NCBI GenBank assembly: GCA_963971225.1
Contig: OZ020269.1
Location: 94,143,540 to 94,207,539, forward strand
Length of the DNA stretch: 64,000 bases
Direction: 5' to 3'
Source: Melieria omissa
Taxonomy: Eukaryota; Arthropoda; Insecta; Diptera; Ulidiidae
A model generated the notes under the pieces. The model saw only the letters and a program-made list of their open reading frames with translations, ran no database searches and was not told where the DNA came from. Shown here piece by piece: positions 8,405-61,654 of the stretch. Position 1 is the first letter of the stretch; the number at the start of each line of letters is the position of its first letter. The position numbers were made by a program, and so were the translations under genes.

Positions 8405-9320
8405 GTTATGGAAGTTAAGAACATCCGTCTCGGAAGTCTAAACGAGTACTGGAAGTTTAGTACATCCGTTTAGGAAGTCTGAACGAGTACTGGAAATTTA
8501 GTACATCCGTCTAGTGTGTCAAAACTAGTACTGGAAGTTAAGTAAATCTGTTTACGAAGTCTAAAGTAGTAGTAGAAATTAAGTACATTTATCTAGGAAG
8601 TCTGAACTAGTTCTGGAAGTTAAGAACATCCGTCTGGGAAGTCTGAACGAGTACTGGAAGTTTAGTACATCCATCTAGGAAGTCTGAACCAGTTCTGCAA
8701 ATTAAGTACATCCGTCTAGGAAGTCTGAACTAGTTCTCGAAGTTAAGAACAACCATCTAGGAAGTCTGAACCAGTTCTGCAAATTAAGTACATCCGTCTA
8801 GGAAGTCTGAACTAGTTCTCGAAGTTAAGAACAACCATCTAGGAAGTCTGAACCAGTTCTGCAAATTAAGTACATCCGTCTAGGAAGTCTGAACTAGTTC
8901 TCGAAGTTAAGAACAACCATCTAGGAAGTCTGAACGAGTACTGGAAATTAAGTACATCCATTTAGGATGTCTGGACTAATTCTGGAAGTTAAGTACATCT
9001 CTCTAGGAAATCTGAACCACTACTCGCTACTATATAAATTCAGCTAGGAAGTCTGAACGAGTACTGGAAGTTAACTACATCCATTTAGGATGTCTGAACT
9101 AGTTCGGGAAGTTAAGTACATCCCTCTGGGAAATCTAAACCAGTACTCGAAACTTTATAGATTCGGCTAGGAAGTCTGAACGAGTACTAGAAGTTCAGCA
9201 CATCCGTCTAGGAAGTCTGGACCAATTCTGGAAGTTAAGTACATCTCTCTAGGAAATTTGAACCAGTACTCGAAACCATGTAGATTCGCGTAGGAAGTCT
9301 GAACGGGTACTCGATATTAC
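8405..9320. repeat. 41-bp minisatellite, about 22 units
   Basis: The unit, beginning AGGAAGTCTGAAC..., repeats every 41 bp and ends with a TACATCCGTCT-type segment. Between about 8660 and 8930 the units alternate in an 82-bp dimer present about three times almost unchanged. From about 8990 to 9300 three variant units form a 123-bp trimer containing a distinctive ACTATATAAATTC-like segment. Edges are degenerate. No open frame runs through it. Confidence 0.9.
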
Positions 9321-11047: not shown

Positions 11048-12621
11048 GCCCCACAGTCGGGCAGTTCAGCCTCCATGGGACCACTTCGAACAACGGTCTG
11101 CGGCTGATCGATTTCGCCGCGGCACGAAACATGGTAGTTAGTAGCACCAGATTCCAGCACCTCGATATCCACAAGGCCACCTCTGGTTATCCCCCGATCA
11201 ATCCACCCGCAACCAGATTGATCACATTGTGATTGATGGAAGGCATGCTTCTAGCATGATAGTAGTGGTAGATGTCCAGATGGCACCAATCGACGACGAC
11301 GGTGTGGATGTGCCACCGCCCAGCCATGACGAGGTCCGGGTCGCTATCCAGCGACTCAAGAACAACAAAGCTGCAGGGCCGGATGGGCTACCAGCTAAAT
11401 TGTTCAAGGCCGGCGGCGGTGAGCTGATTGGGTGCATGCATCAGCTCATTTGCAAAATATGGCCCTTTGTCCTGTGCTGAAGAAAGGCGACCCAACAATA
11501 TGCGCCAGCTACAGGGGTATCAGCCTACTTCCCATTGCATACAAGGTCCTGACGAGCGTACTATGTGAAAGATTAAAGCCACTCGCCAAGGCATCGCCGT
11601 CATCGATTACAAGGCAGCATTTGATAGCCCGATAAGGGATCGCCTATATGCCGCAAAGCTATAATGCTCGCAAAGCTCGTTAGACTTTGCAGAGCGACGT
11701 TGACGCGCAGCTCCGTCAAGGTTAGAAGTGACCTCTCCGACCCCTTTGATACCGTTCGAGGTTTCAGACAGGGCGATCCTTTGTCCTGCGGCCTCTTCAA
11801 CTTCACCATGGAGAGTGTTCTGCGCAAGGTCGGTGTACATCGTAATGGCACAATCTTCAACAAAAGTGTCCAGCTCCTTGCCTACGCAGATGACATTGAT
11901 GTCATCGGGCGCAACAAGCGAGATGTCACCGCTGCATTTGCGGCTATCGAAAGAGAATCTGCCAAAATGGGTCTGGTGGTAAATGAGGGCAAGACGAAGT
12001 ATATGCTATCTACACGCAGTGACTCGCAGCGGCTAGGGTCTCACGTCGAGGCCGACAGGTATATCTTTGAAGTTGTCAAGGAATTCGTCTACCTTGGCAC
12101 CGCCATCAACAGCAGCAATGATGTCAGTCTGGAGATAAAGCGAAGGATTACTCTTGCCAACAGGTGCTACTACGGTCTCGGTAGGCAATTGAGAAGTAGA
12201 GACCTCTCGCGACCGACAAAACTTGCACTCTAGAGGACGCTTATCTTGTCCGTGCTCCTCTATGGCGCTGAAGCATGGACAATGACACGAAATGACATAG
12301 CGGCCCTTGGAGTGTTCGAGAGGAAGGTACTTCGCAAAATCTTCGGCCCTGTTCGTGTTGGTGACGAGTATCGTATACGAACCAATAACGAGCTGTATGA
12401 GCTGTATAAGGACATGGACGTAGCGCAGCGAATTAACATCCAGCGGCTACGATGGCTCGGTCGTGTCTGCCGCATGGACGACGAAGCTCCGGCGAAAAAG
12501 GTGTTCGATGCGGTGCGACCAACTGGAGAGGGCGCGCGCGAAGCAGAGGCGCCTGAAGAGAAGTTTGCGGCAGGCCGTAACCCGATAACGGTTATGGCCA
12601 GTTAAGTAAGTAAGTAAGTAA
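11048..12621 (+). mobile_element. Degraded RTE-like non-LTR retrotransposon (endonuclease + RT)
   Basis: Domains run in plus-strand order. At 11048-11260 is the APE-endonuclease C-terminus (NGLRLIDFAAARNMVV and VIDGRHASSM). At 11325-11440 is the RT start (AIQRLKNNKAAGPDGLPAKLF). At 11465-11580 is KKGDPTICASYRGISLLPIAYKV. At 11664-12233 is the palm, with RGFRQGDPLSC and the intact catalytic block LLAYADDIDVIG. At 12246-12605 is the C-terminal domain. The element ends in (TAAG)n at 12603-12621. No RNase H follows, which fits RTE. Sequence is missing between the endonuclease and RT and again near 11630, and frames shift several times, so it is non-autonomous. It is the longest retroelement piece here. 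Confidence 0.88.
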
Positions 12622-26862: not shown

Positions 26863-26907
26863 GGTGCCCTAGCTCCGCGGCACCCCGCGGAGCTAGGGGT
26901 GCCGCGG
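26827..26907. repeat. Cluster of strong hairpins at a retroelement junction
   Basis: Hairpin 1 is CGTCGTCGTCGTGT at 26827-26840, pairing perfectly with 26849-26862 around an 8-nt loop. Hairpin 2 is CCCTAGCTCCGCGG at 26867-26880, pairing perfectly with 26885-26898 around the loop CACC. A competing pairing joins CCGCGGCACCCC at 26875-26886 to 26896-26907. Hairpin 2 and the competing stem are mutually exclusive. They lie exactly between the minus-strand element to the left and the plus-strand RT fragment to the right. Confidence 0.9.
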
Positions 26908-28335
26908 TTTGCAGGTTTGTTAGTAGATGCACCCAACAAGGAGGGATACTCTCTCCGTTCCCATCGGTTGCAACGGTCAACCAACTTTTGCAGCGCATGA
27001 AAACCGGGGGCTTACAAGGTTATCACTTATGTGAACGACGTTGCAGTAATTGCGTTGTAATGCAAGGGAAATTCCCACAAACGCTGACCGATATCATGGA
27101 ATCAGCCCTACAGACTCTCTGAACCTGGGCGAGCAGCTGTGGACTCGGTGTAAACCCGGCTAAGACTGAACTAGTACTTTTCACTAGACGATACAAGACT
27201 CATCTATGACCTCACTTTTAGCGACAAGGCAAGATACCTGGGGATCATTCTAGATAAGAAGTTGCTCTGGAACGAAAACGTAATAGGGCGCATCAAGAAA
27301 GCGACTACAGCGCTATTTACTTGCAAAAAAGCAATAGGCACAGCATGGGGTTTCTCCTCCAAAATTTCAAACTGGATATATACAGTCATCGTACGTCCAA
27401 CTCCACTCTACGGGGTTCTTGTATGGATGTCAGCAACTAAAAAGTCAACGACACTGAAGCAGTTGCACAGAGTGCAAAGAAGTGCGGAGATATGCATCAG
27501 CGGGGCACTTTGTTCTACCCGTACTGATGCTCTAAGCACGATTCTTTACTTACCTCCTTTTGACATTGTAGCTCAGGGGATCGCATTAGCTTGCGTGCTA
27601 AGGCTCAGGGAGTCTAGGTCTTGGCGTCAATACCCTATATTGGTCAATACCCTAACATACTGACTACTGTATACCTGCCTTGGCATTCGCCAAAGAATAT
27701 GATGTCTTAATACCAAGCAGACAGGAGTGGCTCAAACGACCTCGGTAGATACGAGATGCCATCAACTTTTTCAATGACGGATCTAGGCTGGACGGGAAGG
27801 TTGTAGGTGACGTATTCTCCCCAGACACGGAGATTGAAATGTCTATCCGACTCCCGGATCAGTGCAGTGTAAATCAGGCGGATATGATCACCATCCAGGA
27901 TGCCAGTCTGGACCAAGCTGCGCTTAAAGCTATGGATTCTTGCGTGGACAACACTGAGTGCCGCAGATCTCTAACCGATATAGCAAGTACTACAGTACTT
28001 ACCTCATCTGGGTGCCTGGGCACCGCAACATTGAAGGCAATCCGGACAGCTCAGGAGCGTTGGCATAATTTCTTCTCATGCGCAACAGCAGTCGAATGCT
28101 TCGACAATCCAGCAGTGGATTGTAGAAGTGGACTGCAAGTATCCTAGGCCTCAAAAGGGCGCAGATATCCACAAGGACTCTCATCAGACACGTCATCAGC
28201 ACACGCCATCAGACTGGGTGTCAACCCAAGAGACTTTTGTAGAAGCTGCGATTGCGCTGAAGTGGAAGAAAGCATGCAGCATCTCCTCTGTTCCTTTCAA
28301 ACCTGGCAGAAACATCGTGCATAGATGTTAAAACC
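26908..28335 (+). pseudogene. R1/LOA-type non-LTR remnant: RT, RNase H, zinc motif
   Basis: Plus strand. At 26912-26950 is a decayed RT block (RCTQQGGILSP). Near 27015-27055 the catalytic block reads TYVNDVAVIA, where YVDD is expected. Then NPAKTELVLFTRRYK (about 27150), LGIILDKKLLWNE (about 27240) and WIYTVIVRPTPLYGVLVW (27370-27430). RNase H begins near 27765 as FFNDGSRLDGKVVGDVFSP, where FTDGS is expected. A Cys motif, FCRSCDCAEVEESMQHLLCS, lies near 28235-28295. Frames shift repeatedly, and both the polymerase and RNase H first aspartates are altered, so it is dead. It ends about 210 bp before the peptide gene's poly(A) site. Confidence 0.85.
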
Positions 28336-28552
28336 CTACTTAGCTTTATAACATCGTCCAGAGGAGCAATCAAGTTAGTTTAAGCCGTTTTATGGCATCA
28401 AAATGGTCCAGTATCTTGGCCTAAGTGTGTGATTATTGCTATCCAGCCATTCTAACCTGAACATGAACTCCCTTCCACTGCGATTGGACAACAGTTCCAC
28501 TGTGGCTCACACCGAATATTCCAAGATCCCAAGTTACAAACAATACTTAAAA

Positions 28553-28558
28553 TTTATT
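28553..28558 (-). terminator. Poly(A) signal AATAAA for the minus-strand peptide gene
   Basis: AATAAA on the minus strand lies about 60 nt downstream of the stop codon of the gene at 28619-28855. That is a normal distance. Confidence 0.6.
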
Positions 28559-28618
28559 TATAATACAAAACAAAAATCAGTCAAGTCAAACTAAAAACCG
28601 AATTACAATTAAAGCAAA

Positions 28619-28855
28619 TCAGCTGCGCACTCGCTTCATGCGCTTGCGACATCGTCGATTCGCCAGAATGTAGCCTTCCGGGCAGGCGGGCAGCGGCTTT
28701 CCTTCCAGTATGTGGTACGGCCGCACCAGACCCGCCGACCAATGCGGCACATTTTCACTGGCCTCCACCACTTCGCCAGACTGCTGCGGTCGCGTGCAGC
28801 CGCCCAACAGCCACAGAACTTGGCATACAAACAAGAAAGTGGCGTTTGTCTGCAT
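28619..28855 (-). CDS. Short secreted peptide with secapin-like two-cysteine loop
   Basis: A single-exon 78-residue protein. I take the ATG at 28855 because a hydrophobic signal peptide follows at once (FLFVCQVLWLLGG, residues 7-19); upstream in frame there is no ATG, only a TTG. The mature part is acidic then basic. It ends with CPEGYILANRRC followed by RKRMKRVRS, so one disulfide could close a 10-residue loop before a very basic tail. The spacing CPxG(x7)C matches the secapin-type peptides of Hymenoptera, which are short secreted single-disulfide peptides with protease-inhibitor and antimicrobial activities. The relationship is inferred from pattern only. A TATA-like box lies about 100 bp upstream and AATAAA about 60 bp downstream. 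The plus-strand relative starts 1.8 kb away. Confidence 0.7.
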   Translation of the reverse strand: MQTNATFLFVCQVLWLLGGCTRPQQSGEVVEASENVPHWSAGLVRPYHILEGKPLPACPEGYILANRRCRKRMKRVRS

Positions 28856-28950
28856 TCTGACGCGCAGATGTCTGTGGAAACGATTCGCCAAACTGCAACG
28901 CTGTCGACGTGCGGAGCGCGACTTGCTGCCGCCGCCACATCATGCGGCAC

Positions 28951-28958
28951 TTTTAAAG
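28951..28958 (-). promoter_or_regulatory. TATA-like box upstream of minus-strand peptide gene
   Basis: The complement reads CTTTAAAA about 96-103 bp before the ATG at 28855. A start about 30 bp downstream would give a 5' leader of roughly 70 nt. No clear initiator is visible. Confidence 0.35.
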
Positions 28959-29005
28959 CGAAACTCGAAGTGTGCCGCTTGGAAGTTTGGCCACTCGGAT
29001 TGGTG

Positions 29006-29407
29006 TCATGAACAGTCAATGTGGCACTTTACTGCACACTTATGTCCATAAACGACGCGGCGTGTGCGCCTCGCGTTAATGAGACAACATGTTGAGCACA
29101 CCTTCGCCGGCATTGCGCAGCCGCAGTCGAAGTGCGCCGAAGGTCGGCTGGCTGCTGGCTGGATGACGAAGATTTGTTCGACGCGGTCAATGGCCAATGA
29201 CAGTAAATCGGAATTGCGTGAAATTGAAACACAATTATAACACATCATCCAAATGGAACTGTAGAAGTCTTCAGTGCTTCTCTGTAGAGCGCGAAGCTGT
29301 GTGGGCGTGAAGAGATGACCAGATCCAATACTTGTCCAATGCTGTGCAATGGACATTTTTGTTTTATTCCGCCATACACTTGAGACTCGAATTAAGCTGT
29401 GAGTCAA
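29006..29407 (-). other. Uncertain minus-strand open frame, 133 codons
   Basis: The frame has an internal ATG in good context (AAAAATG, residue 18) and a plausible acceptor (TTGACTCACAG) upstream near 29405. It reads SIAQHWTSIGSGHLFTPTQL then RALQRSTEDFYSS. It ends with a Cys-rich stretch (DCGCAMPAKVCSTCC). I recognise no domain or signal peptide. Other frames across the same DNA are also open, so it could be chance or an exon of an unknown gene. Confidence 0.2.
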
Positions 29408-29409
29408 TT

Positions 29410-30495
29410 AAAATTTCTGGCAAAAGTTTTTAAAAAACTTTCCGTGTTACCTACTAAACTGACGCTATAACAGTTTATCGGCCGTAAGCCGAACCCAAAA
29501 CAGCGCGACATCGGCTTCTGTTCTGTGCTGGCTGTCTGCTTCTGTCCAGCGTCGTTCAACGGGTACCGTCTTTTAGATATTCTTTGTTTGATCTCGAGGC
29601 TCGATAGACAAAGTCGTTCACCATTTCAAATCCAAATCAAACATGCCATGAGTGAAGTGTGGTCCAAGACTCTCTGTGTTTTGATGTTTGCGTTCGTCGT
29701 TCGTCGTTCGCCGCACAACCCACTTCTAGCTCGCTCGCTTCGCTCGCTCGCACTGTCGGAAACCTCGCTTGGTTTAGAACGGTTTGGACAGGTCCTTTCC
29801 TATTCTAACGGAACTAGCGGAGGTCTTCAACGCCACGATGATGGCTTCGTCTTATCACATTTCATCGCACTTTGTGTATGACTGAATAAACATTTTGAAG
29901 TAGAAAATGAGCATAAAACCGGCAGCGTCTCATAAGCATTGAAACTTTGTAAGCACTGACTTTGACTGACTTACTAAGTTTTGTTGTTTTGTTTTTAGTT
30001 TTTTTTATTTTTACTTTTTAATTGTTGAGCTTAAAAAGTAAAAAAATAAAAACTAAAAACAAAACCACAAATGTTTACTACGAAAGGTGTAAAGTGTTGT
30101 GCGATTAATAGATTTGGCAAACATTTTCGTCCTTGATGTGTTACGAATAAATGTGGAAAGATTTAAGATGTTTCAGTATTTTTTTTATTTTATTATGTTA
30201 TACACGTTTTAGTTTTTTAAGTGCAAATAAAAAACATTCATTTGAGTGTGACTAATGTAATCATTCTCAAAATTAACAGCATCAAAGTGAATGTGGAAAA
30301 TTGCCGCCGTTGCTGGGTAATTTATCTAACTGGAATAATTTCAATTACAGTTATTACAAAAAACAGTTATTGCTAAAAAAAAGTATTATAAGGTTTTTCT
30401 ACTTATTTATGTCAATTTAAAACCTTAGCCAATTTCAACGTGACAAATTTTCGAATAGACTTTTCATGCCTAAGCATGTCTAATTTAATTTAAAG
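29410..30495. other. Intergenic region between the two peptide genes
   Basis: Mostly AT-rich beyond 29900. It contains the ~80-nt hairpin described separately and GC-richer sequence at 29500-29850, where the plus frame 29525-29881 shows no domain. As the shared upstream region of two divergent genes it may carry regulatory sites, but none was identified with confidence. Confidence 0.4.
29986..30065. repeat. Near-perfect 80-nt inverted repeat (long hairpin)
   Basis: The left arm (29986-30021, starting GTTTTGTTTTTAG and ending ACTTTTTAA) pairs with the right arm (30031-30065) over about 35 bp with one small bulge. The 9-nt loop is TTGTTGAGC. Arms are AT-only except for a few G/C pairs. Confidence 0.85.
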
Positions 30496-30501
30496 AAACC
30501 A

Positions 30502-30537
30502 TTTAAAAAGGGAATCGACTGCAGACTTCTCTACAGT
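30502..30537 (+). promoter_or_regulatory. Candidate core promoter of the plus-strand peptide gene
   Basis: A TATA-like TTTAAAAAG lies at 30502-30510, and a weak initiator (CTACAGTG) about 30 bp later at 30531-30538. This would give a 5' leader of about 140 nt before the ATG at 30677. The match to the initiator consensus is partial. Confidence 0.35.
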
Positions 30538-30676
30538 GCGAATGCAACCGTGGAACGAGCGATTCGACGTTCTAAATCTGACTCGGCGTTGTATTGAATC
30601 CTTGAGTTTTCCTTTAGAGAAATTGAATAATTAGTAACAAATTAAAGTACGCCAACGAAATCTGAAGATTTGAAAA

Positions 30677-31542
30677 ATGTTTACCATGAAATTGTTAGTG
30701 TTGTTGCTGGTAGCGTTGGTGGCTTTGACAAGTGCCAGGCCCTCAGCAGAGGTTAATGATCCAGGTAAGTCACGAATACATTTAAGAAGCAAGAACATTT
30801 TGTGTTCAACCGATGATTCACTATTTGCATTAATAATTCGAGATAAATCAGTGACGTAAAACGTGCGTTCTATTCGTTTGTAGAAACGTTTTCCGTAAAC
30901 CTACACTTCCCAACAAAACTAGGAGACAATTGGTGCGACTGCGTTTATTCGTGGCTTCGCATTGCAAAAGAAAACGCACTGAAGTTTTGTCCGTCTAATG
31001 TTAGTCAGACAACTTCGATGTCTGTTTTTTCTTATGAAAAAATCCTTTGGAATGAAAATCGGACAATCTGATCTGTGGAGACAGTAGTAGAATACAGACA
31101 GTCTGAAAATCCAATCATGTCGGACCTTTCGAAATACAACGATAGACCATTTGTAAATTCTGAAAACTGAACCATTCAGTCAATCTCACATTAATTTTTA
31201 ATCATTTTTTTTTACCATATTGAGTCTAGTTTTTTCCAACCCTTTCTACTTGATTATGACATTACATATAAAAAAATATTAAAAAAAAATTTTTACAAAT
31301 TCTTTAAAATTAAACGTCATCAGTTATAGTAGCATTTTGCAGAGACTTTGACGAAATCGATCTGAATCCAGTGTACCAACTATTTAATCGATAATATTTG
31401 TGATGAACAATGACAGCAGATTTTCATTACAGCTGACAACCGCCGATTAATCGAGCCCGAAGCCAGATCCATGCCTTTGCAAAATCGTTGTCCTCCAGGC
31501 TTCATACGAACCTGGCGAGATCACTGCCACATGTTGGCGTAA
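30677..31542 (+). CDS. Two-exon short secreted peptide with two-cysteine loop
   Basis: Exon 1 is 30677-30764 and exon 2 is 31433-31542. The 668-bp intron starts GTAAGT and ends TTTTCATTACAG, and it splits a codon after its first base. The joined frame encodes 65 residues. Residues 1-20 form a clear signal peptide (KLLVLLLVALVALTSA core), with cleavage likely before RPSAE. A short acidic propeptide-like segment follows, then CPPGFIRTWRDHC near the C-terminus and a stop four residues later. The CPxG(x8)C loop parallels CPEG(x7)C in the divergent gene at 28619-28855, so I infer two diverged relatives. AATAAA follows at 31566. The pattern recalls secapin-type peptides; that is inference. Splice sites, signal peptide and poly(A) signal agree, making this the best-supported gene here. 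Confidence 0.82.
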
Positions 31543-31565
31543 ACATGCAATCTTATTTTCGCTTA

Positions 31566-31571
31566 AATAAA
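31566..31571 (+). terminator. Poly(A) signal AATAAA for the plus-strand peptide gene
   Basis: AATAAA lies 24 nt after the TAA stop at 31540-31542, giving a very short 3' UTR. Confidence 0.75.
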
Positions 31572-31639
31572 CACAATCATTTAAGTAAAGTAGTATATGT
31601 ACGATCTTTTAATAAGAGGGCTCGATTTGAAAATGCATC

Positions 31640-31800
31640 CGTCTTCTCCAGTTGGTCACATCAAGAGAGAGAGAGGGCCTACGAAACTTGGTCCTTCCAA
31701 CGGAGATACAATTTTCTTCTACGCCGTTGACCTTCAACTATTGCATCGATCAACTTTTTCATCGGAGCTTCACTGTCCAAAACATGGGACATGGTCGAAT
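31640..31800 (-). pseudogene. RTE-like 3'-end fragment
   Basis: The complement reads SEAPMKKLIDAIVEGQRRRR then KLYLRWKDQV and, after frame breaks, CDQLEKT. It is the same end-of-RT sequence as in the elements at 12480-12560 and 63540-63680 (EAPAKKVFDA, WKD, TNW). It begins about 70 bp after the peptide gene's poly(A) signal. Only the last ~50 codons survive. Confidence 0.7.
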
Positions 31801-31929
31801 CTAATGGAGCCGCTGAATGTGGTTTCACATGTTGGGTAGGTAAAATATTCAATGAATGAAATCTGTTGAAATTTGATCGATGGTTTTGTTATGTTAACTT
31901 TACGGGCGTCAATTGTTGGAGACTTGAAT

Positions 31930-32110
31930 TGTAGGTACATCTTGGAAAATGATTTTTGGAATTTTTCAAATTTCGGGATCTGAACATATGTTAAGGTGTT
32001 GTATGAAGAAACTTGATATAATAGGCCTATTGATTTCAAACTTTGTGAAAATACTCCATATCGAAAATAAAACTAGGTGTCATATTTTAAAATTTTTCCA
32101 AAATAAAAAT
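31930..32110 (-). repeat. Single inverted unit of the ~137-bp repeat family
   Basis: Read on the minus strand, it contains AGTATTTTCACAAAGTTTGA, AATCAATAGGCC and TTTCTTCATACAA, then CCTTAAC. These are the landmarks of the arrays at 22.7 kb and 44.2 kb, here in reverse orientation and alone. Confidence 0.65.
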
Positions 32111-32119
32111 TTAAAGAGG

Positions 32120-33320
32120 TCGGTTAAATGGGTCGAGAGGAGATTTCACACATTTGCCAACTGCTGTGCGCCGCGGCGCCAGTCAGAAACAATGTCAGAA
32201 CAAGAGTGGAGCCAAACAAAGCCAACAATGCAACAGAAAGAGAGAGAGAGTGAGAGACAGAGTGAGAGTGAGAAGGACAGAGGAACAAACACAATTGCGC
32301 TGCTGGCCATCGTTGCTGCCGCGTGTTGAGTAACGCCGTGGCGGTGCATTCTACATTATTCGTACGCCTCATCATGCATTTTGTTCCAAAATAAATTAAA
32401 AAAAAAAATTAAAATTACGACGAAAAAATTCGCTCATGCATGCGTGAAAGTCAATTAGGCGCATTAAGTGAGAATGACGTGAACGGTGCGCAAGTGTCGC
32501 CTTTGGACGTTGGCTTAAAGTTATACTATTGCTGTTGTTGTAATTGTTTTTGTTGTTGTAATTATTGTTGTTGTAAACGTTGTTGTTGTAATTGTTGTTG
32601 TTGTAGCTGTCCTCTAGACACATTTCTTTCGGCAGATTCAAGTAAGTAAACGACACTCGACTCACATTACCAAGCAGTGACGCACACAGGGGTTGGGGGT
32701 CAAGTTTTTTTTGGTACCCAAAATCCCTCAAATACAAAAATTGTTTGTACAAAATATGCTTACAAATGGTTTTCGGTTGTATGCAAAATTTCTCTCAAAA
32801 TGAAATTTTGTATGCGACACTGTTACCAATCATCGGAGTCCTTCCGGCACATTGTTCGCCCACGATTGAGGTTCGTAAAGATCGCGCACTATCATAATGT
32901 ATATAAATGCTTCATACGGTAAGCAACAATAATATTTTATGATTGGTATTGTTGTTGTTGTTGTTGTTGTTGTACAAAAAATTGGGTCTTTCTATTGCGT
33001 CACTGTTTGTGCGTCTGTTTGTTGTTGAGCTCACATTTGAATCGCATCACAAAATGAAGGCGCTTTCAAAAACTTTTATCTTTTTTTTTGACAATTCAAG
33101 CGAAAATTATCGAAATCGAAATTTTTAACTGAAATTTTCGTCTTCTTGAAATATGTAGAATACCACCATATCTCAGCAACCAAGCGCGCCATCTATGTGC
33201 GAGCACAAGCGTTTTGAAGCTTCAACCTTCCTCTACTAACTGTCAACCAAATGCCATTTCATGACATTTTGTTGACATTTAATATTTATTAAAATTCATT
33301 TTGCAAAACACGTTTTCGTT
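32120..33320. other. Non-coding stretch with GA and TTG microsatellites
   Basis: Contains a GAGA-rich run at 32238-32275, TTG runs at 32529-32606 (broken) and 32949-32972 (eight units), and a poly-A run near 32398. Overlapping frames follow the simple repeats. Confidence 0.5.
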
Positions 33321-33329
33321 TTATGTTGA

Positions 33330-34180
33330 AATTATGCAAAAATTAATTAGAGTCTGTCATTCTACAGACATCGTTGAAGCCGCAGAAAATGTTCCAAACT
33401 TCCTGAAAACAATTGTTACGGGTGATGAAACATAGTATTTCCAATACGATCCAGAAACCAAGCGTTTAAGTGCGGAATAGAAATCAAAAAACTCACCACA
33501 AGCAAAAAAAAAACACGAAAAGTTCCATCATAAATCAAAACAATGCTCATCCGATTCTTCGATAGCAAAGAAATTATGCACAAAGAATTTGTTCCAACTG
33601 GTCAAACAGTTATTGCCGCATATTACCTCAAAGTTTTGAAGCGTTTTATGGCCAGAATCCGTCGTATTCGACCAGAAAGTTGGTCTCTGTTGCACGATAA
33701 TGCACCGAGTCACACAGCACTCATTGTTCGTCAATTTTTGGCTCGGAATCAGGTCTGTGTGTTGAACCATCCGCCGTATTCACCTGATTTGGCATCGTGC
33801 GACTTCTCTTTGTTCCCGAAACTGAAATTGATTTTCAAGGAAGTCTTTTTTGATGACATTCGGACAGGTGCGGATTCAGAAAAATATTTCGGGGAGGGTT
33901 TCTAAAAGTAATTCTTTAATATTTGTAAAATGCCTTTTAATTTGTATTTAGTTTTACAGGCGATCCAAATATTTCGGGGGGTTTCAACCCCAAAAACACC
34001 CCCTTAATCCGCCACTGCATTCTGACCATACAACGGGCTTCGACGAGGGCACAGATGAGCTGGAACACGCGTTTGAATCTCTATTAAATCGATGTTACAA
34101 GTGTATTGAATCAGGAGGAGAATATTCCGAATAAATATACCGAAAAATTAGCAAATATCGTGTTTTAATTGTGTTTTCTA
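33330..34180 (+). pseudogene. Mariner transposase pseudogene, interrupted by a MITE
   Basis: All three catalytic aspartate blocks are visible in order: IVTGDET (near 33415), LLHDNAPSH (near 33690) and PYSPDLASCDF (near 33780). The third lies 34 residues after the second, the DD34D spacing of mariners. After the inserted element the C-terminus resumes (CYKCIES near 34095). Two early stops both replace an expected tryptophan (ETxYF and AExKS, each TAG). A frameshift lies in an A-run near 33510. The N-terminal helix-turn-helix part is missing and the ITRs are not certain. It cannot encode active transposase. Confidence 0.9.
33865..34017. mobile_element. hAT-type MITE, 153 bp, nested in the mariner
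   Basis: Starts CAGGTGCGGATTCAG and ends TTAATCCGCCACTG, flanked by the 8-bp duplication CATTCGGA/CATTCTGA (one mismatch) at 33857-33864 and 34018-34025. Its sequence is closely similar to the 159-bp copy at 16735. Removing it and one target copy leaves the mariner reading frame continuous (DDIRT...), so it landed in an existing mariner and is younger than it. Confidence 0.93.
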
Positions 34181-36639: not shown

Positions 36640-37990
36640 AAACAAAAAATATTAATACCAACGCTTTAACTGCGAAGCATTCTAATTGCAAGCTTCTTGC
36701 GACTCTTGTAAATTGGGAACAACAGACACAATAGCGGTATTCACCTGATTTTGTTTTATTACAAATCTTTAGAAATATTATTCCATTATCCTGATTGGCT
36801 CGAATTTAAGTCGAAAGCGTTATTACGACATCAGTAAACTGGAAAAAAATAAAAAGTAGGGGCCTTCACCTTAATAATTTTATTGCAAACCTAAAAAAAA
36901 TTTACACTTTAGTTGCAAAAAGACCAAATCTTAGTTGAAAGGACTGTTACTGCATTTTTAGATGGTAAACCAGCATAACAGGGGTGTTCACCTGATATTG
37001 TTTTATAGCAAATCTTTACAAAATGTATTCTAATGTCCTAATTGGATGGAAAAACAAGCATAATAGAGGTATTCACCTAATATTTTTTTATTCAAAATCT
37101 TAAAAAAAAATATTCTAATTTACTAATTGGCTCCAATTTAAGTCGAAAGCATTATTACGACATAAGTAAAGGAAAAAAACAATAAAAGTTAGGGGCTTTC
37201 ACGTAAAAAATTTTATTGCAAATCTAAAAAAACATACACTTAACTTGCAAAAAGGCCAAATCTTTATTGAAAGAACTGCTACTACATTTGTAAATGGAAA
37301 ACAAGCATAAAAGGGGGTATTCACCTAATATTGTTTTATTGAAAATCTTTACAAAATCTTTTCTAATGTACTAATTGGCTCGAAATTAAGTCAGAAGCAT
37401 TATTACGACATCAGTAAAGTGGGAAAATAATAAAAAGTAGGGGCATTCACCTAAACAATTTTATTGCAAACCTGTAAAAAATTTACACATATTTTCCAAA
37501 AAGGCCAAATCTTAGTTGAAAGAATTGTTACTACATTTGTAGATACAAAAATAAGCATAATAGGGGTATTCACCTGATATTGTTTTATTGCAAATCTTTA
37601 CCTACCTACCCTTGTCCTAAGTGGCTCGAATTTAAGTCGAAAGCATTATTAAGACATAAGTAAAGGAAAAAATAATAAAAGTTAGGGGCTTTCACCTAAA
37701 TAATTTTATTGCAAACCTAAAAAAATTTACATTTATGTTCCAAAAAGACCAAATCTTAAATGAAAGAATTGTTTCTATACTTGTAGATGATAAACAGACA
37801 TAAAAGGGGTACTCATCTGATTTCATTTTATTTCAAATCTTTAAAAAATTTATTTTAATATCATAACTGGCTCGAATTTAAGTCAGAAGCATTATTATGA
37901 CATCAATAAAGAAAGAAACAAAAATAATAGGGGTATTCATGTAAACAATTTCATTGAAATCCTAAACAGAATTAGAAAGAATCCGCTGGA
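36640..37990 (+). repeat. Tandem array, ~245-bp unit of two ~122-bp halves (left arm)
   Basis: GGGGTATTCACCT-type half-units (near 36733, 36981, 37061, 37315, 37562, 37805) alternate with GGGGCTTTCACCT-type half-units (near 36861, 37193, 37441, 37685, 37929). Each is followed by TTTTATTGCAAA(T/C)CT. Between them recur AATTGGCTCGAATTTAAGTC and ATTATTACGACAT. About five full units are present. The same landmark occurs reversed at 40590-41420. Confidence 0.88.
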
Positions 37991-44149: not shown

Positions 44150-45900
44150 GTTAAATCAATTGGGCCAATAAACCAAGTTCTTCTTAACCCTTTGTTGATC
44201 CCCTCAGATTTTTATAAAACAATTCTTATCTAATTATTTATCATTTCAAATGTTTTCACCACATTTGAAGTCAATTGGCGCATTAGGTCATATTTCCCCA
44301 TACAAACTCTTAACCCCCCGTTGACCCCATCAGATTTTTATTTTCGAAAAAACACATGAAAATTTATTACTCACTAAGAGTACTTTCACCAAGTTTGAAG
44401 TCAGAAGGCCCATGAAATCTTGTTTCTCCATACAAATTCTTAACCCATCGTTGACTCCGTCAGATTTTGATTTTCAAAAGAGTGAAAAACTCATATCAAA
44501 TTATTTAGCATGTTAAGTGCTTTTACTAAGTTTGAAGTCAAAAGGCGTAAAAAATCATGTTTCTTCATAAAAACATTTAACCCATTGTTGAATCCGTTAG
44601 AGTTTGTTTGTTTGATTTTCGAGAAAATGAGAAACTCGTGTCGAACTATTTCTCACTAAGAGTTCTTTCACCAAGTTTGAAGTCAATAGGTCCATTAATT
44701 CATGTCTTTTTTACAGTTTCTTCATACAATCTTTTAACTTGTCGTTGATCCCGTCGAATTTTGATTTTCGATAAAATGAAAAACATGTGTCGATCTATTT
44801 CTCACTAAGAGTACTTTCACCAAGTCTGAAGTCAATAGATCCATTAATTCATGTTTTTAAACAGTTTTTTCATAAAAACCCTTAACCCTTAACTCTGTTG
44901 AATTTCGATTTTCGAAAAAATGAAAAGCACGTATCGTATTATTTAACATTTGAAGTACTTTCACCAAGTTTGAAGTCAGAAGGCGTAAAAAATCATGTTT
45001 CCTCATGCAAATATTTAACCCATTGTTGACTCTGTTAGAGTTTGTTTGTTTGATTTTCGAAAAAATGAGAAACATGTGTTGAACTATTTCCAGGTCCATT
45101 AGGTCCATTAATTCATGTTTTTTACAGTTTCTTCATACAATCTTTTAACCTGTCGTTGATCCCGTCGAATTTCGATTTACCAAAAAAATGAAAAAGTCGT
45201 ATCGAATTATTTCACGTTTGAAGTACTTTCACCAAGTTTGAAGTCAAAAGGTGTAAAAAATTATGTTTCCTCATGCAAATATTTAACCCATTGTTGACTC
45301 TGCTAGAGTTTCTTTGTTTGATTTTCGAAAAAAAGAAAAACACGTGTCGAAATATTTCTCACTAGGAGTTCTTTTACCAAGTTTGAAGTCCACTAATTTT
45401 CACAGTTTCTTCATACAAACTCTTAACCTGTCGTTGATTTAAAAAAAATTAGAAACACGTATCGAAATATTTCATGTTTGAAGTATTTTCACCAAGTCTG
45501 AGTTCAAAAGGCGTAAAAAACCATATTTCTTCATAAAAACTTTTAACCTTTGTTTCAACCCTTTAAGGTTTGATTTAAAAAAAAAATGAGAAACACGTCT
45601 AAAATTATTTTTAATTCTAAGTATTTTCACCAAATTCGAACCCAATAGGTTAATCGGTTTAGGGGTTTTTCGTAGTCATCCCGTACACGAACCTTAACTC
45701 ATTGTTGATCTCGTTAAGTTGAGTGATTTTCGAATAAATAAAAACTACGTGTCGAATTGTTAGACACGTCAATTTCACCAGATTTGAGATCAAAAGGATC
45801 ATTAAATCGCGTTTCTTTATACACCTTAACCCATGGTTTGCCCTTTTCGACCCACGAATTTCAAAAAATTCCATCTTAGCGGATGTTCATTTTTCATTCT
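44150..45900 (+). repeat. Tandem array, unit ~137 bp (copy B)
   Basis: Thirteen TTAACC landmarks (near 44184, 44312, 44441, 44577, 44737, 44882, 45016, 45143, 45283, 45423, 45544, 45690, 45827) give unit lengths of 121-160 bp. Each unit carries TTTCACCAAGTTTGAAGTC, a TTTCTTCATACAA phrase and a GATTTTCGAAAAAATGA phrase. Units alternate between two subtypes (GTTGATCCCGTCG and GTTGACTCTGTTAGAG), a weak dimer structure. It shares unit sequence and orientation with 22680-24710. Confidence 0.9.
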
Positions 45901-46209: not shown

Positions 46210-47970
46210 AAATTTTATATTTCAGACAATTTTTGTTTGTCCTTCAAAAACCACATTAACTGCCTTTAATGATTTCACTTTGATTTTTAAGGCAATTTCT
46301 ATGCGGCGAAAAAATTGAATAAATAAATACGCAATAAAGAAAGTGTCGCGAACGAGTTGATTGCTGATGCGACGTTTTATTGACAAATAAAATCAGTGCC
46401 TTACGCTCAACAGATTTCCTGTTTATGTGGCAACTTTATGCGGGCAAATGGCGGCTTTTATTGTTGTGAATGTTGTTGTTGCTTTTGTACTTGTGCTGCA
46501 TTGTGTGTTTTATGCAACACGCATGTAGGTTGATGGCGCGTGCCACAGCAACAACTCGTGTGCTCCCTTCCTCCTACTCTCTCTATCTCTCACTCTCTCT
46601 CTCTCTCTTTCTATTGCCATCATTGGCACCGTGCTGACCAAATGCAACAATGGCCAATCGATTTTATGGCGTCGCAAAGTCATTTATCACCCATGAAGAC
46701 TGACCTAATGCGCCTTCAAAGGTGCCTTTCCGTCGCTTCGTTGCAGAAAAATCGCCATTGCAGTGGCGCCAAACATTGCTTCGCTGATTGAAAGCGTGGG
46801 CAGTCCGGGCACGAGTCGAGGCATAGCGTCGACACTAAAACACACACACACACACATACCGAAAGACATACAAGAGAACTGAAAAGAAACACTCGAACAC
46901 GTACAGCGGCCGGCCGGAGGGCGCCGAATAACGCCTGCAGTCGAGGTCCTCTCGCTTTCGTTCGCTCATAAATCATAACATTGTCGCATATGGATGGAGG
47001 AAGTGGCCCGTGGGCTTAGGGGCTCCACTCGACTGTGGCGCTGTGAAATGTGGCGAAAAAGATTGTTAAGACAAAAGTTCACTTTTTAGCAATTTGTAAG
47101 TGATGTCGTTGCAAAGGCGGCTAACGGAGTAAATTTTGTAGGTTTTTTCTAATACTTTGTAAAATAGACTAAATTAGAAAATATTACTAACGCTTTAAAT
47201 AAAATAATAAGACAGTTGGAAAATATTTTGTCCAGCATCCTAAGGTGATGAGTGTCATGTTTATGTTTACATCGATATGAAGAATTCAAGAGCTCTTAAT
47301 TTTCATTAGGTTAAGGGTGGGTTTTAAGTTTCGAATAGTTCGAATCACATAAAATTAATTATGAATAATTGAATTTAGTTCTTTAGCTCAAATGTTTTCT
47401 TAGGCAGGTTTGCTCGCCAGATTGCGCAGACAACGATAGCTGTGTGAACTTGAGGATTCAGAAGCTATGTAGATGAGATGGTCTTGTTTAGAATGGCTCA
47501 GAGTAGGACTTTAATGACCCGAGCCAGGAACTGTACGAAACAATTTAAAGGTCCACAGACTGTTCGATAGAGTTCAGTGTAGTATGGATTAGTCGTACCA
47601 GTGGAATGGGATGACCCTAAAAATGCTAATGGGCACCCAAACCGCATACCGTGGGAGGGAGTTGCTATAGACTTAACTTTGAACAAGACGAGAAAGCCTT
47701 ACACATCATGTACCTCTCTAACTTAGAGAAGAATGTACTTTGGGGGGCAACCGTTGATACAAGAGAACCAGGGATCATTTCTCAAAGACGCGTGGCACAG
47801 TGACTAGGAGGATCGTTGTTGATTACAACATATCTCTGAATGAGAAGTTGCGAACTTTATGGATCAAAAAGTACTCACTTTGTAGTCCGGTTAGGCAAAT
47901 CTCGGAATAGGGTGTGGTTTCTAGTCAGTAAGAATACGGCAGGCAATTAGATGCATCGTTTACGGCTTGT
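46210..47970. other. Non-coding stretch
   Basis: Contains a TTG run near 46470, a CT run at 46577-46609 and a CA run at 46841-46858. No coding feature is supported. Confidence 0.4.
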
Positions 47971-47979
47971 TTTGTGCAA

Positions 47980-48466
47980 GTAGTACAGTCGTGTCTGGGT
48001 ATAGTGAACCCCCTATATAGTGAACAATTGGCCCAATTAAAGAAACCAATTGAAGAGAAACGTCCCATTTTGGCCAATCGCAAAGAAGTCCTCTTCCACC
48101 ACGACAACGCCAGACCATATGTTGCAAAACCGATTCTGTCCAAACTGAAGCAGATGAACTGGCAAATCATGTCGCATCCTCCATATTCAGCAGACATCGC
48201 GCTTTCTGATTTCCACTTATTCCGATCATTGCAAAATAATTTGAATAGAAAAAGATTTAAAACCGTGGACGACGCTAAAAACCATCTTGTCCTCTTTTTT
48301 AACGAAAAAACGCGTGATTTTTAGGAATCTGGCATCCGTAAGTTGGTTGATCGTTGGGAGTGGATTGCCGAACATGATGGCGAACACATAATTGATTAAT
48401 AAAGATTTTGTTTTGAAAAATTTTAATTTGAGTTTTGACTTTAAATTGGGCACGAACTTATGCACT
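47980..48466 (+). pseudogene. Second mariner-like transposase remnant with 3' terminal end
   Basis: The plus frame reads LKKPIEEKRPILANRKEV, then LFHHDNARPYVAKP (second catalytic aspartate, near 48100) and HPPYSADIALSDFHLFRSL (third, near 48195). After a TAG it continues ESGIRKLVDRWEW and EHIID before the stop. HHDNARP and SDFHLF place it in a different mariner subgroup from the copy at 33330. The N-terminal half and first aspartate are missing. The sequence GGGCACGAACTTATGCACTC near 48447-48466 looks like the right terminal repeat. Confidence 0.85.
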
Positions 48467-59579: not shown

Positions 59580-61040
59580 ATCAACAATTGTACTGAGAAA
59601 ATTTTATTCTCTTTTAGGATTTTGTGTTATTTAGTCAATTTTTGAAAATTTTTACTACAAATTTTTAGTAGTCTAAATTTGTTACTATGTAAAATTAAAT
59701 TATTTGGAATACTAAACTTGCAAATGACTTTGTGAAATTCCACCCAGCACTAATATGGCAATTTTCCATACCAACAATTTCACATGTTGTTCATTTTTTT
59801 TCAAACTTTTTGGCCATCTCCGCACTCATCGATAATAATCCTCTATTCATTTTTTGTTACAATTTCAAAAAACCCTGCTGTCCAAAAATGTGCATATCCG
59901 ATCATAGACACACACATAAAAACATGCACACATATGTATGAACGTCTGTTTGTATGTTGTTAACGTGTTTTTTTTTATTTCCTGCCGCTTAATGAAATGG
60001 AAAATTCAATAAGGTTTCTGTTTATACGCTGCGCGCCGAATCGCTTCCATCGCCCACTAACAACGCGCGCACGCTGCACACTGCCGCCGCTTCAGCCGCT
60101 TCAGCCATTCATTATGCGTTTTTGCAACAATTTTTCCAGTTTTTCTGCTGCCAGCAATGTTGCACATTGTGGCGTGTTGCAGGCAGCGGGGCGCGTTGCA
60201 TTTAATTGCGCACTGAAGCGGAAAACACTGGAGGACGTACTTTACGTCCTCGTGCCGTTTGCCGCTAATGGGAAGTGGGAAATTAAGTCACTGGAAATGC
60301 GCGAGCGCTGCAAACAGCAATAAGCAACACACAAACAACAACGACGGCAACAACAACAAATAAATAATAATAAAATAAGCAGCGTATTTACACTGAAAAT
60401 AGTTAAACTTAACACTTTCACTCACGCAACGCGACGCGACGCCACTCAGCCACTCGTTCGCTCGCTCGCTCGTTCGCTCACTCACTTTACGCAATTACAC
60501 TCTTATTGAGTTTGGCACTAATGAGCAGACACTTTGTGTGGATTGTGGCAATTCCGCACTTAATGACATTTAAAATCTTTTTCAATTAATCTGGGAACAA
60601 AACAAATGCAAAATGTCGATACAGTTGTGGGCGCGAATTTGTTTTGGCGCTTTGGAGTTTTTTTAATTGAGTTCAGTTTGATAGTGGAGATATATTTATT
60701 TAACAATCAGTGAAGTAATTAAGAAGGATGCTCTAACATAGTTTTTGGTTTTGTGAAAATATAAATTTAATTTAATTTTTTATGAATAGAAATAAAAATT
60801 TTTTCTAGAAAATCAAAGTGATTTCTTTGGACATTTAGGTATATTCGAAAATTTTTTAAATGTTCCTTTTAATTTAATTTGCATTAAAACACTGAAAGAA
60901 AATACTGCTAGAAAAATGATTTCTAATATGATAAATGACCCTGACGCAGTCATTTCGACTTTCTTGGCCATTGTTGTTAAAAAATTTGCTACAGGTTTTA
61001 CAGAGTCTTCTGTGTAGTTATTTGATTCGACTTGATTTGA
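59580..61040. other. Non-coding stretch
   Basis: Contains short CA runs near 59910, CAA repeats near 60335-60358 and a GCTCGTTC-type run near 60455-60480. No coding feature is supported; frames at 59997-60494 overlap on both strands. Confidence 0.4.
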
Positions 61041-61044
61041 TTAG

Positions 61045-61650
61045 ATTTTATTTTATTTTATTTTACGTTATTTTGTGTTTATTTTATTTTATTTTATTTT
61101 ATTTTATTTTGTTTTATTTCATTTCATTTCATTTTATTTTATTTTATTTTATTTTATTTTATTTTATTTTATTTTATTTTATTTTATTTTATTTTATTTT
61201 ATTTTATTTTATTTTATTTTATTTTATTTTATTTTATTTTATTTTATTTTATTTTATTTTATTTTATTTTATTTTATTTTATTTTATTTTATTTTATTTT
61301 ATTTTATTTTATTTTATTTTATTTTATTTTATTTTATTTTAGTTTAGTTTATTTTATTTTATTTTATTTTATTTTATTTTATTTTATTTTATTTTATTTT
61401 ATTGTATTTTATTTTATTTTATTTTATTTTATTTTATTTTATTTTATTTTATTTTATTTAATTTGATTTGATTTGATTTGATTTGATTTGATTTGATTTG
61501 ATTTGATTTGATTTGATTTGATTTGATTTGATTTGATTTGATTTGATTTGATTTGATTTGATTTGATTTGATTTGATTTGATTTGATTTGATGTGATGTG
61601 ATGTGATGTGATGTGATGTGATGTGATGTGATGTGATTTGATTTGATTTG
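61045..61650 (+). repeat. Pentanucleotide array: ATTTT, then ATTTG, then ATGTG, then ATTTG
   Basis: ATTTT units run from about 61045 to 61459, with a few C or G variants near 61110-61130 and 61340-61350. ATTTG units follow at 61461-61590 (26 units), nine ATGTG units at 61591-61635, and three ATTTG units at 61636-61650. Neighbouring units inside each block are almost identical. Phe/Leu/Tyr-rich and His/Ile/Thr/Ser-rich frames here are products of the repeat. Confidence 0.97.
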
Positions 61651-61654
61651 AATA

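Follow-up and report, generated by a model that had tools for sequence, protein, structure and literature searches.

The window analysed here, a stretch of 64,000 nucleotides (C3:94143540-94207539) in the 490-Mb genome of the fly Melieria omissa (164 contigs), carries two small genes arranged head to head, one on each strand, whose predicted products are short secreted peptides with a single two-cysteine loop. We found that this pair is one of several copies in a cluster on C3, and that in several copies the DNA encoding the loop has diverged much faster than the DNA around it. The explanation that we consider probable is that C3 holds a locally amplified cluster of small secreted peptide genes, each with a single two-cysteine loop, which are diversifying against a changing target. 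A preliminary description of the window had reported the pair, and neither the cluster nor the focal divergence of the loop was part of it. In total, 284 kb of DNA was read: 200 kb around the cluster (2500 bases of it N), 20 kb to the left of this, and the window, with the interval 93.89-94.14 Mb left out. The copy in the window is called W, and the letters A to I denote the other copies of exon 1 of the plus-strand gene on C3. The features of the window copy are as follows.

28553 to 28558, minus strand: AATAAA poly(A) signal of the minus-strand gene (TTTATT on the plus strand), 60 nt past the stop codon
28619 to 28855, minus strand: intronless gene for a predicted secreted peptide precursor of 78 amino acids (ATG at 28855, stop codon ending at 28619)
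28649 to 28684, minus strand: two-cysteine loop CPEGYILANRRC of the minus-strand gene, C58-C69, found by loop profiles trained without this gene
28796 to 28855, minus strand: predicted signal peptide of the minus-strand gene, residues 1-20, from composition
30677 to 30764, plus strand: exon 1 of the plus-strand gene, encoding a predicted signal peptide; the inner ATG at 30686 is the start common to the copies
30765 to 31432, plus strand: phase-1 GT-AG intron of 668 bp (27 mismatches to copy D in 638 aligned bases)
31433 to 31542, plus strand: exon 2, encoding the predicted mature peptide and the stop codon, from the sequence and the alignment of copies
31462 to 31533, plus strand: hypervariable stretch of exon 2 (31 mismatches to copy D in 66 aligned bases, against about 4% in the intron and 3' flank)
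31489 to 31527, plus strand: two-cysteine loop CPPGFIRTWRDHC of the plus-strand gene, from the sequence and the loop search
31566 to 31571, plus strand: AATAAA poly(A) signal of the plus-strand gene
26888 to 32121, no strand: stretch of which pieces are duplicated at copy D (C3 about 93777.5-93784.4 kb), from DNA comparison

Both small genes look real, and their sequences look like those of precursors of short secreted peptides of the single-disulfide type. Each has a signal peptide, called from composition with an assumed cleavage point, and one C-terminal two-cysteine loop beginning with CPEG or CPPG, as first described. Re-reading of positions 28553-28855 confirmed the minus-strand gene in every particular: 78 amino acids, no intron, a CPEG-x7-C loop followed by a basic tail, and AATAAA. 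For the plus-strand gene, the two exons, the 668-bp GT-AG intron inside the open reading frame (ORF), the CPPG-x8-C loop and AATAAA stood, and the length had to be corrected. Translation from the outer ATG gives the 65 amino acids reported. Because this outer start (MFTM...) is absent from copies G and I but the inner ATG (MKLLV...) is kept in nine of nine aligned copies, the protein probably has 62 amino acids. The splice donor GTRAGT was present in all nine aligned copies of exon 1 (copy F, a 65-base match, was excluded), and a matching acceptor was present in eight of them, the exception being copy I.

The two proteins were searched against the whole genome. The minus-strand protein gave four matches, all on C3 and one of them itself; the others were copies at 93733752 (99% amino-acid identity) and 93778981 (94%) and a partial copy of 35 residues at 93792893 (91%). 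The plus-strand protein gave ten rows: itself in two exons, seven exon-1 places at C3:93.736-93.818 Mb, and one row on C2 that was taken as noise (E 4.3). Nine of the ten rows thus fell on C3, where the E values of the exon-1 matches ranged from 3e-8 to 0.024. By DNA comparison we recognised ten copies of exon 1, W and A to I. Seven of them (W, B, C, D, E, G and H) are open two-exon genes with a loop, each with two cysteines past the signal peptide. Copy A ends early and lacks cysteines; in copy I exon 1 is degenerate and a second exon could not be recognised.

W (94.17 Mb) and D (93.78 Mb; minus-strand gene at 93779214, plus-strand gene at 93782996) each have both genes open and in head-to-head order. 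The identity between the window and D is 90% at 26888-27665, 92% at 27913-30008, 89% at 30454-31610 and 97% at 31709-32121. In A, C and E the minus-strand gene persists as DNA remnants at the head-to-head place (at about 93745.1, 93763.5 and 93787.7 kb). The minus-strand copy at 93733752 is intact; it is turned toward the tail of A, with no open plus-strand gene at its own head. A remnant of the minus-strand gene was also sought at the head of copy B and was not found there. The complete pair in W and D, together with remnants or lone partners elsewhere, indicates that the pair was copied several times as a unit and that most copies then decayed by losing one partner. The origin of the two genes from each other by duplication and inversion, as had been proposed, was not borne out: the pair appears to have been copied as a unit, signal peptides and exon structure differ between the two genes, and their likeness is limited to the loop. 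Plain duplicates of the assembly were dropped as an explanation, the copies lying at separate places with 82-97% identity; an error of assembly is still a possibility.

The comparison of W with D shows where the copies differ. Against the 31 differences in the 66 aligned bases of the loop stretch, we counted 2 in the first 29 bases of exon 2, 10 of 237 in the 3' flank and 62 of 299 in the 300-base 5' flank, where likeness is lower than in the 188 bases closest to the gene (91%). When 66-base windows were moved along the alignment (379 windows, 4338 aligned bases), the loop window held 30 differences; windows outside exon 2 had a median of 2 and never exceeded 11. Divergence begins and ends abruptly at the two edges of the stretch. 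An excess of differences in the loop at the DNA level was also seen between W and G and between D and G. We then related the nonsynonymous divergence (pN, from codon counts) of the mature part to the divergence of the intron in six pairs of two-exon genes. The ratio was 7.8 for W-D, 4.7 for W-G, 4.9 for D-G, 4.7 for C-E, 2.0 for B-E and 1.2 for G-H; in five of the six pairs, that is, pN in the mature part was 2 to 8 times the intron divergence, and the same ratio for the signal peptides was 0 to 0.6. Differences were mostly nonsynonymous in C-E (8 nonsynonymous to 0 synonymous) and B-E (14 to 2). The three intact minus-strand genes differ at 2 to 7 of 237 bases, which is too few for a test of selection. 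A loop that diverges much faster than its surroundings in several copies may be read as a sign of an evolutionary contest.

The loop is found beyond the head-to-head unit. The 284 kb contained 18 loop-bearing places: the seven two-exon genes, four minus-strand copies (one partial), a trio of intronless genes with related signal peptides at 93688721, 93690614 and 93692509 (loop search), two twin loop exons in tandem at 93798901 and 93799425 whose last 21 residues are identical and whose upstream frames differ, a loop remnant at 93795774, and, at C3:93825135, a weak candidate (profile E 0.097) in which a signal-like start is followed directly by a CPKG-x7-C loop. Eleven of the places are full precursors with a signal-like start and one two-cysteine loop. 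A loop profile made from three genes that do not belong to the unit (93690614, 93692509 and a twin exon) placed the minus-strand gene first among the window ORFs (E 1.5e-5; 11,249 ORFs searched), and the plus-strand gene was not listed in the same search (E > 1). With G and H added to the profile, E was 1.4e-6 for the minus-strand gene and 0.052 for the plus-strand gene. One copy of base-shuffled DNA (11,403 ORFs) gave no match at E <= 1 with either profile, and after this comparison chance ORFs were dropped as an explanation. Conversely, when the profile was built from the two-exon genes, with W among them, E was 0.0011 for the minus-strand gene and between 8e-4 and 0.024 for the solitary genes; the best shuffled match had E 0.19. 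Since a profile of one group picks up genes of the other, a relation of the two groups through the loop is supported, short of proof, and is weakest for the plus-strand gene itself.

Taken together, these data suggest how the peptides might work. In the most likely mechanism the peptide would be secreted, the disulfide would clamp a short beta-hairpin together, and a protein that itself changes would be bound and blocked by the variable residues that lie between the cysteines and next to them. The partner could be a protease or a receptor of a parasite, a microbe, a rival's sperm or a mate. A binder or inhibitor whose partner changes would be expected to look like this, a short hairpin in which the frame is fixed and the residues vary. 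In a single-sequence structure model of exon 2 of the plus-strand gene, two short strands lie at the loop, with a mean predicted local distance difference test score (pLDDT) of 69.

Several observations weigh against the preferred explanation. G-H showed no excess, neither of loop differences at the DNA level (p 0.5) nor of pN over the intron (p 0.58); at the DNA level the excess was also absent in B-E (p 1), and in C-E it was borderline (p 0.065). The six pairs were chosen from 21 possible among the seven open genes, share sequences and are not independent. The W-G and D-G alignments contain large gaps, and in D-G the cysteines do not line up with each other, so that this pair carries little weight. 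In the search with the two-exon profile, the ORF at 93834613 (E 0.016, taken for chance) outscored two of the solitary genes. The structure model of the minus-strand gene was poor (mean pLDDT 54) and showed no hairpin, and none of the computations points to a target. Finally, synonymous sites of exon 2 were also raised, to 0.17 in W-D, 0.43 in W-G and 0.33 in D-G, compared with 0.04-0.07 in the intron, and therefore selection on amino acids does not explain everything by itself. This suggests that in these three pairs selection may be joined by older loop variants, by exchange between copies or by local mutation.

In its strongest form this becomes an explanation of its own: older loop variants have been kept apart while gene conversion evened out introns and flanks, with no recent burst of selection. 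The raised synonymous sites and the sharp edges of the divergent stretch in W-D both favour it, but the differences in C-E and B-E are mostly nonsynonymous, and we regard it as possible, at clearly less than even likelihood. The likelihoods that we give for this and the other alternatives exclude neither one another nor the explanation that we prefer, a cluster diversifying against a changing target.

Each of the 11 predicted mature parts with a loop has two cysteines, and the net charge, with assumed cleavage, ranges from -7 to +12. The minus-strand gene is at +6, the trio at +5 to +12, and D, G and H at +4 to +5; counted from residue 19, C is at -7, E at -3 and W and B at 0, each one unit higher if cut before the arginine. 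Immune peptide families usually show tandem expansion and decay. The cluster fits this pattern, and its short cationic members would suit antimicrobial or immune-induced peptides under Toll/Imd control that diversify against microbes. Against this stand the acidic C and E and the neutral W and B, and strict NF-kB-type sites were absent from nine of the 11 upstream regions of 500 bp. Counts of strict NF-kB-type and GATA-type sites upstream, compared with shuffles, showed no enrichment apart from single sites, and the combination that marks Toll/Imd peptides, kB sites upstream with a cationic mature peptide, did not hold for the group. We judge this alternative rather unlikely. Because C and E are acidic, W and B are near neutral and kB-type sites occur in only two of the 11 upstream regions, antimicrobial action as a function common to all members is doubtful.

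As a class, seminal-fluid peptides diverge fast in the mature part, are of mixed charge and turn over in tandem. All three traits are seen here, which would fit seminal-fluid or other reproductive peptides diversifying through sexual conflict. No Pfam family scored above its cutoff, which counts against this assignment, and we judge this alternative, too, rather unlikely.

The preliminary description had likened the pair to secapins, and some of the likeness is real. Both window genes have a signal peptide (by composition) and a single C-terminal CPxG...C loop, and with the secapins of Hymenoptera and caterpillar setae they share a short secreted precursor with one C-terminal disulfide loop (predicted here). 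Some members also have the CPxG-type start and basic residues past the second cysteine. In an ant, according to the accessible part of PMC10800049, secapin genes form a tandem cluster, as here, and have, as in the C1 genes, their whole ORF in exon 1 with an intron just after the stop codon. The strands modelled at the loop of the plus-strand gene resemble the beta-hairpin modelled for secapin-like peptides in the accessible text of PMC11335235, a caterpillar paper that also places secapins in Diptera and other orders, citing other work. The Pfam model PF17521 (Secapin) was the best for member G (15.1 bits, E 0.023) and for a 49-amino-acid piece of the twin exons (14.1 bits, E 0.049).

These likenesses, above all the CPxG-x7/8-C spacing, the basic tail of the minus-strand gene, the PF17521 matches and the second-hand report of secapins in Diptera, would favour direct descent from the secapin gene family of bees and ants, with a protease-inhibiting or antimicrobial action. 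Other evidence speaks against it. No member reached the curated PF17521 cutoff of 25.9 bits, the best being G, and neither window gene was matched by this model. With the loops alone, PF17521 matched two of 11 at E <= 10, and EGF-type and CC models did as well (two of 11 each). The CPxG start is not kept among the plus-gene copies (CADG in B, C and E; CSGPR in D). The ORF of the minus-strand gene lies in one exon, but that of the plus-strand gene and its group is interrupted in frame by a phase-1 intron, in contrast to the ant genes (PMC10800049). As stated in the accessible part of PMC10591384, bees and wasps have two secapin genes, located at neurexin-1 and in the vicinity of carbonic anhydrase-related protein 10, and sawflies have none; the neighbours recognised here were ORFs of a polysaccharide deacetylase and a ribose-5-phosphate isomerase (in the window, 6 of about 26 frame pieces, each of 15 kb, were scanned against Pfam). 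We consider descent from secapins improbable. The peptides may work like secapins, but classing them as secapins fails the tests made.

At C3:93825135, the weak candidate, a GTAAGT about 55 bases past the stop codon could begin a 3' intron, somewhat as in the ant secapin genes.

Searches of Pfam, PDB and a set of 5.8 billion proteins gave no significant relative of either window gene; the last set was taken as mainly prokaryotic and metagenomic, and its result says little about insects. Family profiles run against PDB matched complement-receptor chains (E 0.007-0.008), yet no single stretch passed; thrombomodulin followed at E 0.48 or above, and signal-peptide or other weak matches began at E 0.22. 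The pattern C-xx-G-[YF]-x(n)-C is a signature of EGF. The loops share this spacing with the last cysteine pair of EGF-like domains (cEGF, EGF_Tme5), as also reflected in the weak Pfam and PDB matches, thrombomodulin among them. They differ in that scores are below cutoff and that each of the 11 predicted mature parts has two cysteines only and no full six-cysteine domain. Paillotin (IM18) was considered as an identity and dropped. Compared by description only, it is, like the peptides predicted here, a short secreted peptide of Diptera, with its C-terminus the most conserved part and an XP/XA start past the signal; the accessible text of PMC12419901 mentions neither a cysteine nor a disulfide.

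The closest parallel in mode of evolution is with the conotoxins, whose genes, in the part of PMC10561478 available, combine a conserved signal part with a hypervariable mature part in many copies. The same mode, with signal exon and intron conserved and the mature part faster, was found in five of the six pairs, together with the focal peak in W-D; G-H is the exception. The two systems differ in that no sequence relation was shown, one disulfide replaces several and there is no venom context. A bolder proposal is that the cluster is a fly counterpart of the conotoxin system, a chromosomal factory that would copy a divergent pair and renew only the roughly 70 bp of a disulfide-held binding loop, through exchange limited to the loop or through locally raised mutation together with selection, the intron and untranslated parts being kept alike. 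We think this unlikely as it stands.

Other elements were seen in the DNA read. A polysaccharide (chitin-type) deacetylase ORF lies inside the cluster (C3:93724698-93725447, E 1.5e-5), a ribose-5-phosphate isomerase A ORF lies to its right (C3:93875944-93876351, E 1.1e-29), and the 2500-base N run that adjoins the cluster at C3:93831040-93833540 is an assembly gap or a withheld stretch. The window holds simple arrays at 2126-2650 and 61020-61651 (ATAG, about 131 copies; ATTTT-type, about 109-126 copies) and minisatellites at 8409-9311, 37049-37966 and 44365-44978 with units of 41, 248 and 149 bases; the region 44365-44978 also matches L007:278-724, beside copy D, at 64-70%. Remnants of mariner-type transposases are present at 33495-33794 (PF01359 E 7e-5, DDE_3 E 5e-4) and, recognised by eye, at 47932-48324. 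ORF pieces of the LINE (long interspersed nuclear element) reverse-transcriptase type were recognised by eye at 11628-12605 and 27175-28147, the second inside the duplicated stretch.

Among the open-access literature matches listed, we found no description of a fly cluster of this kind, in keeping with the earlier view of the pair as an undescribed candidate; an annotation without a paper may exist. Where rapid evolution within a family is confined to the binding loop, a direct molecular contest is usually under way. With a fast stretch of about 70 bp inside otherwise similar copies, the contest, the paralogues and the residues to compare are all close at hand in the cluster. Should the peptides prove to be immune, seminal or salivary, the cluster would serve as a compact model of how insects renew small effectors, and the secapin-like loop would be a scaffold that can be rebuilt outside venoms.

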